Part shown: positions 2,304-13,237 of the stretch, piece by piece | Layout: the number at the start of each line of letters is the position of its first letter | Position numbering within the stretch: position 1 is the stretch's first letter | Origin: Clostridiales bacterium | Lineage (GTDB): Bacteria > Bacillota > Clostridia > Christensenellales > DUVY01 | Assembly (NCBI GenBank): GCA_031290295.1 | Contig: JAITNT010000225.1 | Span: 1 to 13,237 of the forward strand | Direction: 5' to 3' | DNA length: 13,237 nt | Made by a program: the position numbers and the translations under genes | Notes under the pieces: generated by a model | Database searches by the model: none | Seen by the model: the letters and a program-made list of their open reading frames with translations, nothing else | What the model was told of the DNA's origin: nothing

Positions 2304-3002
2304 ATGTATATCGCACAAGAAACCCTTACCGGTTCAGGCAAAGCAACCGCACGGACAAAATCAATTAAGCCGCCGTCGGGCGTCGTGAGGATACTTACGC
2401 TTCTATTTCTGTTGCCCGTTTTTTTGTTGACGGGTTGCGGAAACGGCAACGGCTTAAAGGTAGGTTTCGAGTACGGGTTTTCCCCGAATCCCATAGCGTG
2501 CGCCGTCAAAAGCGAAAAAACCGAATTCGATATAGACGATGTGACGTTAGATTTTTATTACGGCAGTCCCGAATCGGCATGGGGTATAGGCGACGGAAAT
2601 TACGAGCTCGTTTGTTTTGCCGTTTATTTTTGTAATTCAAAATACCTTAGTACAATTGAATACTTAACAACCGTAATTGACGACTACCGCATAATCTACG
2701 GTTACTTTTTTGTAAAAGAAATTAGTCCCGAGGAATATGCTTCCGGCGATTACGATGTAGAAAACAAGATGTTTTCAGATAAGAAATTTAATCATTATGA
2801 AACCTTGACCGTTCCCAAAGAAGCGCTGGAACTCTCAAAGGGTTATTTCGGTTTAACTATTATGGAAACATATTATTCGCAAAAAGACGACGGTTATTGC
2901 GTGACGCATAAAGGATTCGGCGCGGTGAGATACGAAAAAATTACCGACCGAACCGTCCGTCTTTCCAAACCGGAAACAACCGTTTTTTCAGATCCCGTTT
3001 AA
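2304..3002 (+). CDS. Lipoprotein, copy A of a tandem pair
   Basis: The product is a 232-residue secreted lipoprotein of unknown function. The signal peptide has an unusually long polar n-region (about 1-28), a hydrophobic core L-T-L-L-F-L-L-P-V-F and the lipobox L-L-T-G-C, with C45 as the lipidated residue. A Gly/Asn-rich linker (GNGNG) follows. The mature domain looks beta-rich, with E-K-T-E-F-D-I-D-D-V-T-L-D-F-Y-Y and later E-I-S-P-E-E-Y-A-S-G-D-Y-D-V. The start is supported by GAGGAG a few bases upstream. It is followed 59 bases later by a close paralogue in the same direction. Compared with that copy, the n-region is about 14 residues longer and unrelated at its very start, so this 5' end may have been rebuilt after duplication. 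I know of no named family for the mature domain. Confidence 0.8.
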   Translation: MYIAQETLTGSGKATARTKSIKPPSGVVRILTLLFLLPVFLLTGCGNGNGLKVGFEYGFSPNPIACAVKSEKTEFDIDDVTLDFYYGSPESAWGIGDGNYELVCFAVYFCNSKYLSTIEYLTTVIDDYRIIYGYFFVKEISPEEYASGDYDVENKMFSDKKFNHYETLTVPKEALELSKGYFGLTIMETYYSQKDDGYCVTHKGFGAVRYEKITDRTVRLSKPETTVFSDPV

Positions 3003-3471
3003 TTAAGCTTGTACAAAGGAAATAACCTTTGTATAACATAAAAAATTCAAGGAGAATGAAAATGAAAAAAGTCAAATCAATTAAGTCTATATCAGGTATC
3101 GCGAAGATACTTACGCTTCTATTTCTGTTGCCCGTTTTTTTGTTGACGGGTTGCGGAAACGGCAACGGCTTAAAGGTAGGTTTTGGCTCCGGCAATAACC
3201 GCGCCGCCATCATGGTTGCCGTCAAAAGCGAAAAAACCGAATTCGATATAGACGATGTGACGTTAGATTTTTATTACGGCGGTTCCGATATTGGCAAATA
3301 CGGTGGTGAAGCCTATGAGCGTATTGGTTTTGCGGTCTATTTTTTTAACGGCAAATATTTGAAAACAATTAAAAACCTAGAACCCGTTATCGAGGACTAC
3401 CGAGCAATCCCGGGCTTTTATTTCGTAAAAGAAATTAGTCCCGAGGAATATGCTTCCGGCGATTACGATGT
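2390..3471 (+). repeat. Tandem duplication with mosaic identity (two units, period about 716 bp)
   Basis: Three blocks are base-for-base identical between the two lipoprotein genes: 2390-2467 with 3106-3183 (78 bp), 2502-2564 with 3218-3280 (63 bp), and 2712-2758 with 3425-3471 (47 bp). The offset is 716 for the first two blocks and 713 for the third. Sequence between the blocks is clearly diverged, including indels. Identity at silent positions inside the blocks and its loss outside them is what recent duplication plus gene conversion would leave. Confidence 0.85.
3012..3033 (+). promoter_or_regulatory. Intergenic hairpin between lipoprotein genes
   Basis: A perfect 8-bp inverted repeat, TACAAAGG (3012-3019) and CCTTTGTA (3026-3033), with a 6-base AT-only loop, sits just after the stop codon of copy A. 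There is no run of T directly after it, so it is a weak terminator at best. It may instead set the relative levels of the two lipoprotein messages. Confidence 0.4.
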
Positions 3472-3718
3472 GGAAATAAAGGGTTTTTCCGACGTAAAGT
3501 TTAATCACAACGAAACCTTGACCGTTCCAAAAGAAACGCTGGAGCTCTCGAAAGGTTATTTGTGCTTAACCGTTATGGAAATATATTATTTACCGGGCGG
3601 CGAGGTTTATTGCGTGCATCATACCGGACATGTCGGGGTAAGATACGAAAAAATTAACGACCGAACCGTCCGCCTTTCCAAACCGGGAACAATAACCTCT
3701 TACCCCGATCCGTCTTAA
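3062..3718 (+). CDS. Lipoprotein, copy B of a tandem pair
   Basis: This is the paralogue of the gene at 2304-3002. The best start is the ATG at 3062, seven bases after AAGGAG (3049-3054), giving 218 residues; starts at 3029 or 3056 are in frame but badly placed relative to that site. The signal peptide is conventional (M-K-K-V-K-S-I-K), with lipobox L-L-T-G-C and C31 as the lipidated residue. The mature domain repeats the EKTEFDIDDVTLDFYY and EISPEEYASGDYDV segments of copy A. Divergence is concentrated in the stretches between these, including the region just after the linker, the G-S-D-I-G-K-Y-G loop and the C-terminal H-H-T-G-H-V-G. Function is unknown; the tandem arrangement suggests a family expanding locally. 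Confidence 0.8.
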   Translation: MKKVKSIKSISGIAKILTLLFLLPVFLLTGCGNGNGLKVGFGSGNNRAAIMVAVKSEKTEFDIDDVTLDFYYGGSDIGKYGGEAYERIGFAVYFFNGKYLKTIKNLEPVIEDYRAIPGFYFVKEISPEEYASGDYDVEIKGFSDVKFNHNETLTVPKETLELSKGYLCLTVMEIYYLPGGEVYCVHHTGHVGVRYEKINDRTVRLSKPGTITSYPDPS

Positions 3719-10108: not shown

Positions 10109-10620
10109 GGGGGGGGGAAGAGGGCAAGTGAATTGCATCGGGGCGATGAAAGCGGCGAAGAGGGTCTGGATTCCTACGGCGCGCTAGCGCGCCTCTGAAT
10201 GACAGAGAGGGCTTATTTGTTTATTAGCAAGCGGCGAAGTGTTGTTTCGACTACGCGATAGCAATGACATGGGCTTGTTTGGTTTGTATTGTGTACGAGT
10301 GGACAAGGTGAACCGTACCGCTAGCGAGCGCAAGTGAAGCGCGCGAGCGGCTTTTAGCCGTACAATACGAGTATACCGTAATAACCCGGATAAGACTATG
10401 CCGTTGAAGTCCGCCCGAATGCGAAAAAGCGAGACGAAGCCGCCGCTAAGGCGGCGCAGCGAGCGCGCATTCGCGTCGGGGCGGCAAAAGTCCGACTGAA
10501 TGCGACTAAGCAAGACAGCCGCCCGTAAAGGGCGGCTTGTCGCAGCGCTTATTCACGCTTGGTCGGCTCTCTTGCGCGCATTCGCGTCCGGGCGGCTTAT
10601 TCACGCTTGGTCGGTATGGT
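10109..10620 (+). repeat. Repeat block R1 (partner R2 at 11668-12190)
   Basis: R1 begins with a G9 tract followed by AAGAGGGCAAGTGAATTG. It carries a dispersed-repeat copy (10230-10269), a 50-bp block at 10347-10396 that matches 11804-11853 at all but two bases, and a block of about 170 bp (10399-10569) matching 12017-12189 closely. The right part holds two hairpin units. It ends with a second copy of the 20-base word beginning GCTTATTCACG (10547-10566 and 10595-10614). R1 and R2 have the same orientation and flank the DHH gene. Confidence 0.8.
10492..10566 (-). repeat. Gene-3'-end palindromic element, copy in R1
   Basis: CCGAC (10492-10496) pairs with GTCGG (10562-10566) and TGAAT with ATTCA inside it; the centre is a strong stem AGCCGCCC/GGGCGGCT (10517-10524 and 10530-10537). 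The matching element in R2 keeps the outer and central stems while bases around them change. It lies about 76 bases past the DHH stop codon; the word GGTCGGCTTA also occurs right at that stop. It may act as a bidirectional terminator, although no T run follows. Confidence 0.5.
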
Positions 10621-10642
10621 ATCGTTTGGTCGGCTTAGTCCT

Positions 10643-11557
10643 TTAGCCGTCCTTTTTCATAACGGCGATAAGCTCGGCGATCGCCTTATCGGCCTCGCCG
10701 TATACCACCTGACAGGTGCCTACCTGGCGGTGTCCGCCGCCGCCGTACTTCAAAAGAAGCTTGCCGACGTCGGTCTTAGACGTGCGGTTGATAACGCTGT
10801 GACCAACCGCGATAGGGCAATTCTGCTTGCCGCGCCCGTCTACTATCCACAATGAAATGTTTTGCTCCGGGTACATACTGTAAACAAGGAAGCGGTTGCC
10901 CGTATAAATTGTTTCCACGTTCCTCAGGTCGCTGACGATAACGTTGCCGTCCGTACGGGTGTGCGCCTTGACCATTTCTTTGAAAAGCTTATCCTGCTCG
11001 AAATACAGCTTAACGCGTTCCTTAACGTCGGGCAACGCCATAATCTCGTCGATATTCATAGTCGCACAGGCGTCAATGAGCATTTCCATAAGCTGATAAT
11101 TACTGATTTTGAAATCGCGGAAGCGTCCCAACCCCGTGCGCGGATCCATAACGAAGCCTAACAATACCCAGCCCGTCGGGTTGAGAATTTCTTCCTTAGC
11201 GAGTTTTGCCGCATCAACCTTATCGACGGCCGTTACCATTTCGTCAAAGTGCGGGAGCTTCGCTTTGCCGCCGTAATAATCGTAAATAACGCGGGCGGCG
11301 GAGTCGGCAAGGCGGCTCATGCCCTCGTATTTTACATTAGCTCCCAGTCTCTCGTTCTCGCTCGAATGATGGTCAAACCACAGCTTGCAACCCTCGATAT
11401 ACGGAACGTTCGCCAAAACGTCGTCCTTAGTTACCTCTACAAGCCCGTCCTGCATATCCTTAGGGTGGACAAACTTCCAGTTGTCGATAATCCCCAATTC
11501 TTTCAAAAGAGCGCCGCAGGCAAGTCCGTCGAAATCCGATCTGGTAAGTAAACGCAT
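10643..11557 (-). CDS. DHH/DHHA1 family phosphoesterase (exopolyphosphatase- or oligoribonuclease-like)
   Basis: The 304-residue protein has the motifs of DHH phosphoesterases, Mn-dependent enzymes that cleave phosphate esters in short RNAs, cyclic dinucleotides or polyphosphate. The first metal motif is S-D8-F-D10-G (usual H-x-D-x-D-G, with Ser replacing the common His). The second is the signature D62-H63-H64. A-A-R (87-89) and V-D112-K-V-D115 supply further ligands. The C-terminal DHHA1 domain ends with G-G-G-G-H276-R-Q-V-G, the substrate-binding glycine loop. No membrane segment or CBS, PAS or GGDEF domain is present, so it is a stand-alone cytoplasmic enzyme rather than a GdpP. The start at 11557 has GGGAGA upstream and a strong promoter at 11599-11627. 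It is monocistronic and flanked by direct repeats R1 and R2. Family assignment is firm; the exact substrate cannot be told. Confidence 0.88.
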   Translation of the reverse strand: MRLLTRSDFDGLACGALLKELGIIDNWKFVHPKDMQDGLVEVTKDDVLANVPYIEGCKLWFDHHSSENERLGANVKYEGMSRLADSAARVIYDYYGGKAKLPHFDEMVTAVDKVDAAKLAKEEILNPTGWVLLGFVMDPRTGLGRFRDFKISNYQLMEMLIDACATMNIDEIMALPDVKERVKLYFEQDKLFKEMVKAHTRTDGNVIVSDLRNVETIYTGNRFLVYSMYPEQNISLWIVDGRGKQNCPIAVGHSVINRTSKTDVGKLLLKYGGGGHRQVGTCQVVYGEADKAIAELIAVMKKDG

Positions 11558-11627: not shown

Positions 11628-11853
11628 GAAAATATCAACGGCAATTTTATTATTCGCTCCGGCAATAGGGGGGGGGGGGAAGAGGACAAGTGAATTGTAT
11701 ATGGGGCGGTGAAAGCGGCGAAGAGATGTTTCGACTGCGCGCTAGCATTGACAGAGAGGGTTGGTTTGAACTGGATTGCCACGCTGCGCTCGCAATGACA
11801 ATAGCGGCTTTTAACCGTACTATACGAGTATACCGTAATAACCCGGATAAGAC

Positions 11854-12013
11854 GAGTATGTTCATACCGCCGAAGGCGTGCAGATTTCAGTCAATTTTAG
11901 TGTCCGTCAAGGCGTTTTTTCGCAGGCGTAGTAGAACTACGCCAAGAAAAAAGAACACAGACGGACGCTGAAAGGGACGATATATGCCGCTTGCGCGCGG
12001 CATGAACATACTC
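11854..12013. mobile_element. MITE-like 160-bp element with 12-bp perfect inverted repeats
   Basis: GAGTATGTTCAT (11854-11865) and ATGAACATACTC (12002-12013) are perfect inverted repeats. Inside are three arms: a left hairpin CGCC-GAA-GGCG (about 11868-11878), a long central arm made of nested pairs (TTTCAG/CTGAAA at 11885 and 11968, GTCCGTC/GACGGAC at 11902 and 11960, TTTTTTC/GAAAAAA at 11915 and 11946, GCGTAGT/ACTACGC at 11926 and 11936), and a right hairpin GCCGC/GCGGC (11986-12001). The whole folds as a cloverleaf. Repeat R1 lacks it: GATAAGAC is followed there directly by TATGCCGTTG, and here by the element and then TATTGCCGTTG. No clear target-site duplication is seen and no protein is encoded. 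Confidence 0.65.
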
Positions 12014-12111
12014 TATTGCCGTTGAAGTCCGCCCGAATGCGATTAAGCGAGACGAAGCCGCCCGCAGGAAGCGGCGGAGCGAGCGCGCATTCGCGTCCGG
12101 GCGGCAAAAGT

Positions 12112-12186
12112 CCGACTGAATCGGATTAAGCAAGACAGCCGCCCGTAAGGGGCGGCTTGTCGCAGCGCCGATTCACGCTTGGTCGG
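12112..12186 (-). repeat. Gene-3'-end palindromic element, copy in R2
   Basis: CCGAC (12112-12116) pairs with GTCGG (12182-12186), TGAATCGG (12117-12124) with CCGATTCA (12168-12175), and AGCCGCCC with GGGCGGCT (12137-12144 and 12150-12157). The element ends six bases from the permease stop codon, so it probably lies at the 3' end of that transcript. Confidence 0.5.
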
Positions 12187-12192
12187 CTTAAC

Positions 12193-13237
12193 TTATTCCG
12201 TCCTCAAAGCGACCACGGGGTCTTTTTTGGAGGCTATTCTCGACGGAACGAGTCCGGCTATGAGGGATAACAGCATACTTATGAGGATAAGCCCTATCGC
12301 GTACCATACGGGCAGGGCGGCTATTCCGGACACGCCCACGAGTCCTGCGACTATGAGGTTAATCGGTATCGACAAAAGCAACGTAACAAGTATGCCGAAC
12401 GTGCCCGCTACAAAGCCTATCAGCAGGGTTTCGGCGTTAAATACGCGTGAAATATCCTTCTTGCGCGCGCCGAGGCTTCGCAGTATACCGATTTCCTTAG
12501 TGCGCTCGACGACGGAAACATAGGTGATTATGCCGATCATTATAGAGCTTACGACCAACGATATTGCGGCGAACGCCGCGAGAACGACGGTAACCGTATT
12601 AAGCATGGTAGATATGGCCCCCGAAATTGTTTCCGCGATATCGGAATAAATAATTTGCTCCGTCTCGTCCCTGCTCTTGTTATAGGCGTCAAGATAGACC
12701 TTGATCGCCTCCTTATCGTCAAAGGTTTTGGGATAAATCGAAACGCCCGTCGGCATAACGTCCGCGCCTATCGCCTTTGCGGCGGCGGAATACGTATTTG
12801 TCGCGGTAAAAGCGTTGCCCGTAATTACGTTAACCGTCTTGCTCGCCGTTTGTGCGGCGGCTATATCCGAGCCCTGCTCGAGTCCCAGCATATACTCCGT
12901 AAGCGCGGCGGTGTAGCCGAAGCCCGCGTTCAAAAACTCGCTCGACGAGCTTTCCTTGACGCGCATTACCCCTACGATTCTTAGCGTAAGCGCGCTTTCG
13001 TTCTCGTACAAATTCCCGAGACCCGCATCCGCCTCAAAAAGACCGCCCGCGCCCTCGGTGTAATAATCGTTATTTGCGATAACCCTAAGCTCTCTGCCGA
13101 TAAGCTCGCCGAAGGTATACGTATCCTTGACGGCGACCCCGAAGCGATCAAGTATGCGCGTGTCCACCCTGTTTTGCTTATCCACGATAAGCGCCATGTC
13201 GGTCTTTTCTACGGGATAACGGCTGCCTGCGCCTAAT
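12193..13237 (-). CDS. FtsX-like (MacB-type) ABC transporter permease, C-terminal part
   Basis: The frame runs off the right edge: upstream of the first ATG (13197) another 13 codons stay open, so the true start lies outside and 347 residues are visible. The first 200 or so visible residues form an extracytoplasmic domain (strands and helices, with R-I-V-G-V-M-R and A-E-T-I-S-G-A-I) typical of MacB/FtsX periplasmic regions. Then comes the FtsX core: a membrane helix (about 203-229, counting from the ATG at 13197), the conserved cytoplasmic coupling loop V-V-E-R-T-K-E-I-G-I-L-R-S-L-G-A-R-K-K-D-I, and two more helices (about 257-287 and 296-317). It ends in P-S-R-I-A-S-K-K-D-P-V-V-A-L-R, the usual C-terminus. 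Such permeases export or sense peptides, lipids or antibiotics, or act mechanically. It may be the permease half of an ATPase-permease fusion. Confidence 0.88.
   Translation of the reverse strand, partial: LGAGSRYPVEKTDMALIVDKQNRVDTRILDRFGVAVKDTYTFGELIGRELRVIANNDYYTEGAGGLFEADAGLGNLYENESALTLRIVGVMRVKESSSSEFLNAGFGYTAALTEYMLGLEQGSDIAAAQTASKTVNVITGNAFTATNTYSAAAKAIGADVMPTGVSIYPKTFDDKEAIKVYLDAYNKSRDETEQIIYSDIAETISGAISTMLNTVTVVLAAFAAISLVVSSIMIGIITYVSVVERTKEIGILRSLGARKKDISRVFNAETLLIGFVAGTFGILVTLLLSIPINLIVAGLVGVSGIAALPVWYAIGLILISMLLSLIAGLVPSRIASKKDPVVALRTE

Follow-up and report, generated by a model that had tools for sequence, protein, structure and literature searches.

The 160-bp block at positions 11854 to 12013 of the window, the stretch of 13,237 nucleotides that was analyzed, is well supported as a mobile element. 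It is one member of a family of hairpins, detected in genomes of the same order and phylum, in which a core of ~91 nt is kept and the ends change, an unusual pattern. The reading that we favor, and regard as reasonably probable, is that of a non-autonomous, MITE-like element that is moved in trans by an IS5-like DDE transposase and has a folded core under selection.

Insertion into an intergenic repeat

The block is bounded by perfect 12-bp terminal inverted repeats, GAGTATGTTCAT at 11854 to 11865 on the plus strand and its counterpart at 12002 to 12013 on the minus strand, which reads ATGAACATACTC on the plus strand, exactly as the original prediction had placed them. Also as predicted, it encodes no protein; short open frames cross it, none of them gene-like, and there is no room for a transposase. 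A length of 160 bp (<500 bp), terminal inverted repeats and the lack of a transposase gene are all features by which MITEs are recognized. The element is flanked by a minus-strand open frame of 304 amino acids (10643 to 11557), for which there is no Pfam match, and by a minus-strand gene for an FtsX-like permease (12193 to 13236). Neither a tRNA nor a tmRNA gene is present in the window, and an origin of the element from either was rejected. Elsewhere in the window, two adjacent and closely similar open frames (2304 to 3002 and 3029 to 3718) have a lipoprotein-like start (LLTGCGNGNG); the second has no Pfam match.

The element interrupts a host repeat on the plus strand. The left part of this repeat (11803 to 11853) ends with GATAAGAC and the right part (12014 to 12188) begins with TATTGCCG, where uninterrupted copies have TATGCCG. 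One uninterrupted copy, repeat R1 (10346 to 10568, plus strand), is continuous across the point that matches the insertion, as had been noticed in the original prediction, with this point located at 10396/10397 (GAC|TATG). The repeat is abundant in the source genome (G000; 1.77 Mb in 306 contigs, 62% complete), with at least 45 matches to repeat R1 when 40 of 109 candidates were scored. The 22-base empty junction GGATAAGACTATGCCGTTGAAG occurs there at 41 sites with three or fewer mismatches, 30 of them exact, and the reversed pattern, used as a control, at none. With 41 junctions in a genome that is 62% complete, the host repeat constitutes a large intergenic family, and in the window (10205 to 10640 and 11690 to 12190) it is a mosaic of modules, among them attgccac..gcaatgacaat, ttcgac..aatgaca and GTCCGCCCGAATGCG..CGCATTCGCGTC.

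Three copies of the element are present in the source genome: the window copy on contig C271 (100%), a second full-length copy on C290 (99%) and a partial copy on C274, in which the left 103 bp are retained with 92% identity. Three filled copies against 41 uninterrupted junctions leave no place for the scenario in which the block is single copy in all genomes and repeat R1 is a deletion derivative. Several copies next to empty sites are likewise a trait of MITEs. As 41 other junctions of the host repeat are intact, the empty repeat is taken to be the ancestral state. The left junction, GATAAGAC|GAGTATG, is identical in all three filled copies and the right junction, CATACTC|TATTGCCG, in both copies that retain the right flank. 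Empty sites read GAC-TA-TGCCG, the TA lying precisely where the element went in, and the insertion is therefore at a TA. Of the two TAs that would be expected, the left one is absent from all three filled copies, which thus have no target duplication, and the two copies with a right flank have one extra T there. The 22-base search is blind to junctions with an extra T; in a recount on the sequences with gaps allowed, this T was present at none of 32 uninterrupted junctions (30 loci). Because filled copies at different loci share this odd junction, the simplest history is probably that the element inserted once and that the filled repeat was then copied or converted.

A folded core in the order and phylum

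When folded as RNA, the 160 bp have a free energy of -84.0 kcal/mol, compared with a mean of -40.3 (sd 3.9) for shuffled sequences (z -11.3), and 0 of 200 dinucleotide shuffles fold as well; with DNA parameters, z is -9.8. Pairing is thus far above chance, but the cloverleaf with three arms of the original prediction is contradicted, as the minimum-energy and centroid structures coincide in a single, unbranched, imperfect hairpin. The conserved core of 91 nt occupies 11888 to 11978 on the plus strand. Within it are the two sides of a conserved loop motif, CAAGGC at 11908 to 11913 and AACACAG (consensus AACGCAG) at 11954 to 11960, and an apical stem-loop, GGCGTAGTAGAACTACGCC, at 11925 to 11943.

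The core was first recognized in G002, a genome from another genus of the family, which has seven matches; elements in this genome are of nearly equal length, have different ends and fold in a similar manner, with z -11.6 and, for a second end type, -4.4. A covariance model built from nine cores (model R1) has six matches in the source genome, the three copies on C271, C290 and C274 plus additional members on C71, C58 and C102. Across the order, it has matches in 18 of 200 genomes, the own genome being counted, or in 15 of 200 without three doubtful genomes (G010, G129 and G140), in which the matches are ~70 nt long, lack ~20 nt of the core and may be other hairpins. A second model (R2), built from 38 order-level cores, has matches at E 1e-4 in 10 of 398 genomes of the phylum, own genome again included. 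The window core is matched by both models, with 86.9 bits for model R2, and is a member of the training set for both. Among the phylum matches are two single-contig genomes of 6.5 Mb with 10 and 4 copies, which are probably from Paenibacillus as the only plasmid match, to an element of the type found in the complete genome G534, is a Paenibacillus cellulosilyticus record. G534 itself carries ten or more copies. Plasmid records contain no match to the element of the window, and viral contigs none to one core pattern of the G534 type. A contig scan with a single pattern returned two loci, both from the MAG Clostridiales bacterium Gx485_bin36, which is G002, and the covariance models found far more. 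At gathering score, Rfam 15 has no match on any element among the window and 12 loci of relatives, its only match elsewhere being a tmRNA, and with lax filters the best E value, 1.6, is at the chance level. We found no description of this hairpin family in the open literature, most subscription journals being outside the search.

Starting from 99 core matches, reverse-strand self-matches, near-identical or truncated copies, the three doubtful genomes and some weak matches were dropped, leaving 38 cores in the covariation alignment and 47 in the order part of a count of arm complementarity. On the 38 cores, a hairpin of 33 pairs has 81.2% of its cells paired, compared with 43.7 to 50.6% when the structure is slid along the alignment, a control flattered by the rows being hand-chosen and the structure drawn from the same sequences. 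The covariation score is 0.397, against at most 0.159 for slid structures, with none of 500 shuffles scoring as high, and there are two-sided changes at 27 pairs. The covarying stems for which the original prediction had suggested a search are thus present. Conservation averages 0.96 for the TTTT/AAAA stem and 0.57 for stem B, which follows it. The motif CAAGGC/AACGCA has a mean of 0.85, stem C of 0.71 and the apical stem of 0.81; the second loop, at 0.56, is no better conserved than stem B. 'Loop' is a loose term, as three pairs are possible inside the first motif and are formed in 66.7% of cases. In 19 rows aligned across the phylum, including two from the training set, the CAAGG and ACG motifs are kept and the stems changed. 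Outside the 91 nt covered by the model, complementarity of the arms exceeds that of 99% of shuffles in 33 of 47 order matches and 32 of 40 phylum matches; as these arms lie outside the model, their complementarity was not selected by it. The original prediction had offered a retained structured RNA as the alternative to a mobile element. The structure stands and the choice between the two does not, as the covarying core and its loop are common to elements with unrelated ends, which speaks for both features together.

Such a structure could also be a cis-acting RNA, namely a terminator, processing site or riboswitch-like hairpin that was spread by mobility and is kept for control of host genes. 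The covariation, the conserved loop motif and the mostly intergenic position are consistent with this, but there is no rule of orientation. Among 81 elements, five lie inside an open frame and six lack a neighbor, and for the 70 with genes on both sides (heuristic gene calling) the neighboring genes run in the direction of the core in 19 cases, against it in 22, towards each other in 19 (convergent sites) and, less commonly, away from each other in 10 (divergent sites). With the lack of an Rfam match, this makes a cis-acting RNA unlikely, and a mobile element with a selected fold remains the reading that we prefer.

Several other loci deserve mention. L113 (G198) has two elements on the same strand ~2.65 kb apart, with genes between them that we take to encode adenylate kinase and methionine aminopeptidase. 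L121, L122 and L074 (G010, G129) contain strong hairpins in tandem, spaced by ~160 bp, which give scores with the core model, lack ~20 nt of the core and are possibly unrelated. L063 and L081 (G001) have the same flanks, with a hairpin in one and 16 different bases in the other, and were rejected as a clean empty site.

Ends, target sites and candidate transposases

Four end types are present in the source genome: that of the window, GAGTATGTTCATACC, and those of the further members, GTGTGGACGCTAATGG at C71, TA|GACTTCTTGCAAAACT at C58 and TA|GGGCGTGCTCACACT at C102, where the contig stops within the element. Across genomes, the types include, besides that of the window, GGGCGTGCTCACAC (G000), GGGTGTGTTCATA (G120), GAACCTGTATTCA (G002, G018), GA(C/G)TTGTT(G/A)CGAAA (G002, G034), GATAGTGTGGAC (G001), GATACTGATG (G114, G128), GGGCGTGTCTGAAAA (G534, G575) and GGGGCTATCAAG (G508). 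In a comparison of 780 pairs of 40 hand-chosen elements, similarity of ends and similarity of cores are partly uncoupled. Within G406, L140 and L166 have cores with 79% identity and ends that are alike only at the chance level (14; 95% null 15), and L163 and L166 have similar ends (28; null maximum 20) and cores with 57% identity. Likewise, the ends of L107 (G018) resemble the G002 type (35 to 40), and its core has 65 to 74% identity. This suggests, as far as sequence comparison can, that both ends are exchanged together. The ends could be different through fast divergence rather than exchange; we infer that exchange, and not mere divergence, has occurred.

The same observations bear on the possibility that this is an ordinary MITE, with an interior that is a chance passenger, cores that are similar by common descent and ends that diverge rapidly. 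Size, ends, duplications and absence of a gene are all MITE-like, short conserved stretches are known within MITEs (TIMEs, PMC4133298), and there are deletion derivatives of 45 to 58 bp that lack the core. The compensatory changes, a loop motif conserved at 0.85 across the order next to a stem at 0.57 and present also in the phylum, and the presence within G406 both of elements that are alike in their ends but not their cores and of elements that are alike in their cores but not their ends are all difficult to reconcile with a passenger, and we consider this explanation improbable relative to a core that is itself under selection.

Target duplications are evident in relatives. Of five copies of the GAACCTG type that match the motif at both ends, four (three from G002 and one from G018, which belongs to another family) are 160 bp long with a perfect TTA/TTA duplication, and the fifth is 163 bp long without it; L005, with an altered right end, and diverged copies were excluded from this count. 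With the window-type copies and empty sites, these 3-bp direct duplications support the original prediction of a non-autonomous, transposase-dependent element. The 14 copies in G534 and G575, two complete genomes, were inspected by eye; nine have TA on both sides and five on one side, so that a TA on a single side, as in the window, is nothing out of the ordinary. Automatic counts of TA near computed ends (18 of 47 and 22 of 40) include chance TAs, miss shifted ends and were not relied upon. Length is also conserved. At the sites listed for the G534/G575 end motif (88 of 102 in G534, 62 of 62 in G575), at least 19 neighboring inward-facing pairs span 162 to 168 bp from TA to TA, at least 10 of them exactly 164 bp, equivalent to 160 bp between the TAs, and at least eight neighboring pairs span 45 to 58 bp. 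Mini hairpins of 49 to 58 bp in L170, L174 and L175 (G534, G575) consist of little but the ends, retain the TA flanks and have the appearance of 160-bp elements with the interior deleted. Other neighboring pairs of this motif, 25, 375, 497 and 2057 bp apart, include none recognized as an IS, and the complete list of end sites in G575 likewise contains no autonomous IS. Another end motif, TAGTGCGTGTTCAAAAA, is found repeatedly in G534, and in L169 it forms an inverted pair of 2057 bp that encloses two genes, each end being followed by a GCGTAGGCAAAACTACG hairpin.

There are no DDE_Tnp_1 genes and no Y1_Tnp genes in the source genome, which is 62% complete, as compared with three and one, respectively, in G002. 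Two of the G002 DDE genes, at L058:1447-2096 and L059:1-839, are fragments of IS5-family transposases (NF033581, E 2.6e-20 and 3.9e-22; PF01609, PF13359), with scores below the NF033581 whole-protein cut-off as the genes are pieces cut by contig ends. Positioned 21 and 6 bp past their stop codons are TA|GAGTTGTTGCGAAAAG (L058) and TA|GAGTTGTCAACTAACT (L059), both GAGTTGT... ends that were noticed after the fact; each IS has only one end on its contig, and the L059 flank is another repeat, TATTGCCGCG..CGCAATGAC. Subgroups of IS5 target TA and TNA. In a comparison of 13 hand-chosen end types, seven GA(C/G)TTGTT-like hairpins match the L058 end at 11 to 13 of 16 bases, a likeness equalled by 0 to 5 of 5000 shuffles. 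A core match is present in five of these hairpins (L075, L087, L092 and one each in L097 and L008) and absent from the other two, in L005 and L008. Hairpins at L005:1709-1850 and L008:1241-1440, with the ends ATTAGACTTGTTGCGAAA and GAGTTGTTACGAAACC and a common stem, GAGGGATTTTT / CGAAAAGACCC, have an incomplete core. The window end matches that of L058 at 8 of 16 bases, a level reached by 188 of 5000 shuffles, and that of L059 at 7 of 16 (465 of 5000), a likeness that is not convincing; the other five end types tested likewise do not match. GCAATA precedes the ends of both IS fragments and, read inwards, the right end of the window element. The prediction of a transposase elsewhere thus gains support through IS5-family ends in a sister genus that match one related end type, not the window's own, for which we infer mobilization in trans. 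L057, with an IS982-like transposase and unrelated ends of its own, was rejected as the partner IS; half a hairpin of another type is located 331 bp from its open frame.

A target duplication is not expected of REPINs, and the element might instead be REP/REPIN-like, moved as single-stranded DNA by a Y1 transposase of the RAYT or IS200/IS605 type. The long hairpin, intergenic position, fixed length, lack of a duplication in the window copies and single Y1_Tnp gene in G002 would fit. The TTA direct duplications and TA flanks of the relatives and the long inverted terminal repeats do not, there is no Y1_Tnp gene in the source genome, albeit incomplete, and the conserved ends and variable spacer described for REPINs (PMC3116915) are the reverse of this family. 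We give this explanation little credence and prefer movement by a DDE transposase.

Relation to known elements and proposed mode of spread

Bacterial MITEs are described, in PMC10969869, as shorter than 500 bp, with inverted ends, no gene, a hairpin, an intergenic location, a target duplication and dependence on an IS. RUP, for example, is 107 bp long and has ends like those of IS630-Spn1 (PMC3049150). RUP and Correia elements resemble the hairpins described here in size, inverted ends, lack of a gene, hairpin and intergenic location; in those families, however, the ends are common to all members, whereas here the core is common and the ends differ. The BOX, RUP and SPRITE repeats of pneumococcus are nested in one another, as is the hairpin within a repeat here, but the portion of PMC3049150 drawn on describes no covarying core with several end types, and the likeness drawn here is by description. 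REPINs share with this family a palindromic hairpin of fixed length and compensatory changes (PMC3116915). The bcr1 group A repeats of Bacillus cereus, likened again by description, are MITE-like, intergenic, 100 to 400 bp long and in some cases transcribed (PMC6542083 and PMC3446304); their mobility is tied to a TTTAT motif (PMC6542083), not to TA or TTA as here. Among IS, those of the IS5 family (NF033581) come closest, as the TA-flanked GAGTTGT... ends of the G002 fragments resemble one hairpin end type, but these are fragments, with no full IS, and the window's own ends have no clear match.

In the MITE-like reading that we favor, a DDE transposase, with the IS5 kind as the likeliest candidate, would recognize the ends of the element in trans and would target and duplicate TA, or TTA for one related end type. 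One copy would have entered a TA within the abundant intergenic repeat of the source genome, and copying or conversion would later have carried the filled repeat to two or more further loci, with the element hitch-hiking on the host repeat. Selection would act on the folded strand of the core, either as RNA or as single-stranded DNA formed at replication or on cruciform extrusion, and the core would most likely aid persistence or movement of the element. Lineages would swap ends, and hence transposases, and retain the core. A more far-reaching version, which we put forward tentatively and regard as possible rather than probable, is that of a phylum-wide selfish hairpin with the folded core of ~91 nt as its heritable identity, the ends and transposase being exchanged and the core, as RNA or single-stranded DNA, having a conserved task, for example that of recruiting a factor of the host or of transposition.

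It is generally by their ends that MITEs are defined and detected, and a family defined by its core, with interchangeable ends, would escape searches based on ends. The covariance model makes such a family searchable, the conserved folded motif provides a handle with which to seek its partner, and experiments would be possible in complete genomes that, like G534, carry at least ten copies. Such a family would also suggest that tiny, non-coding mobile DNA can switch transposases.
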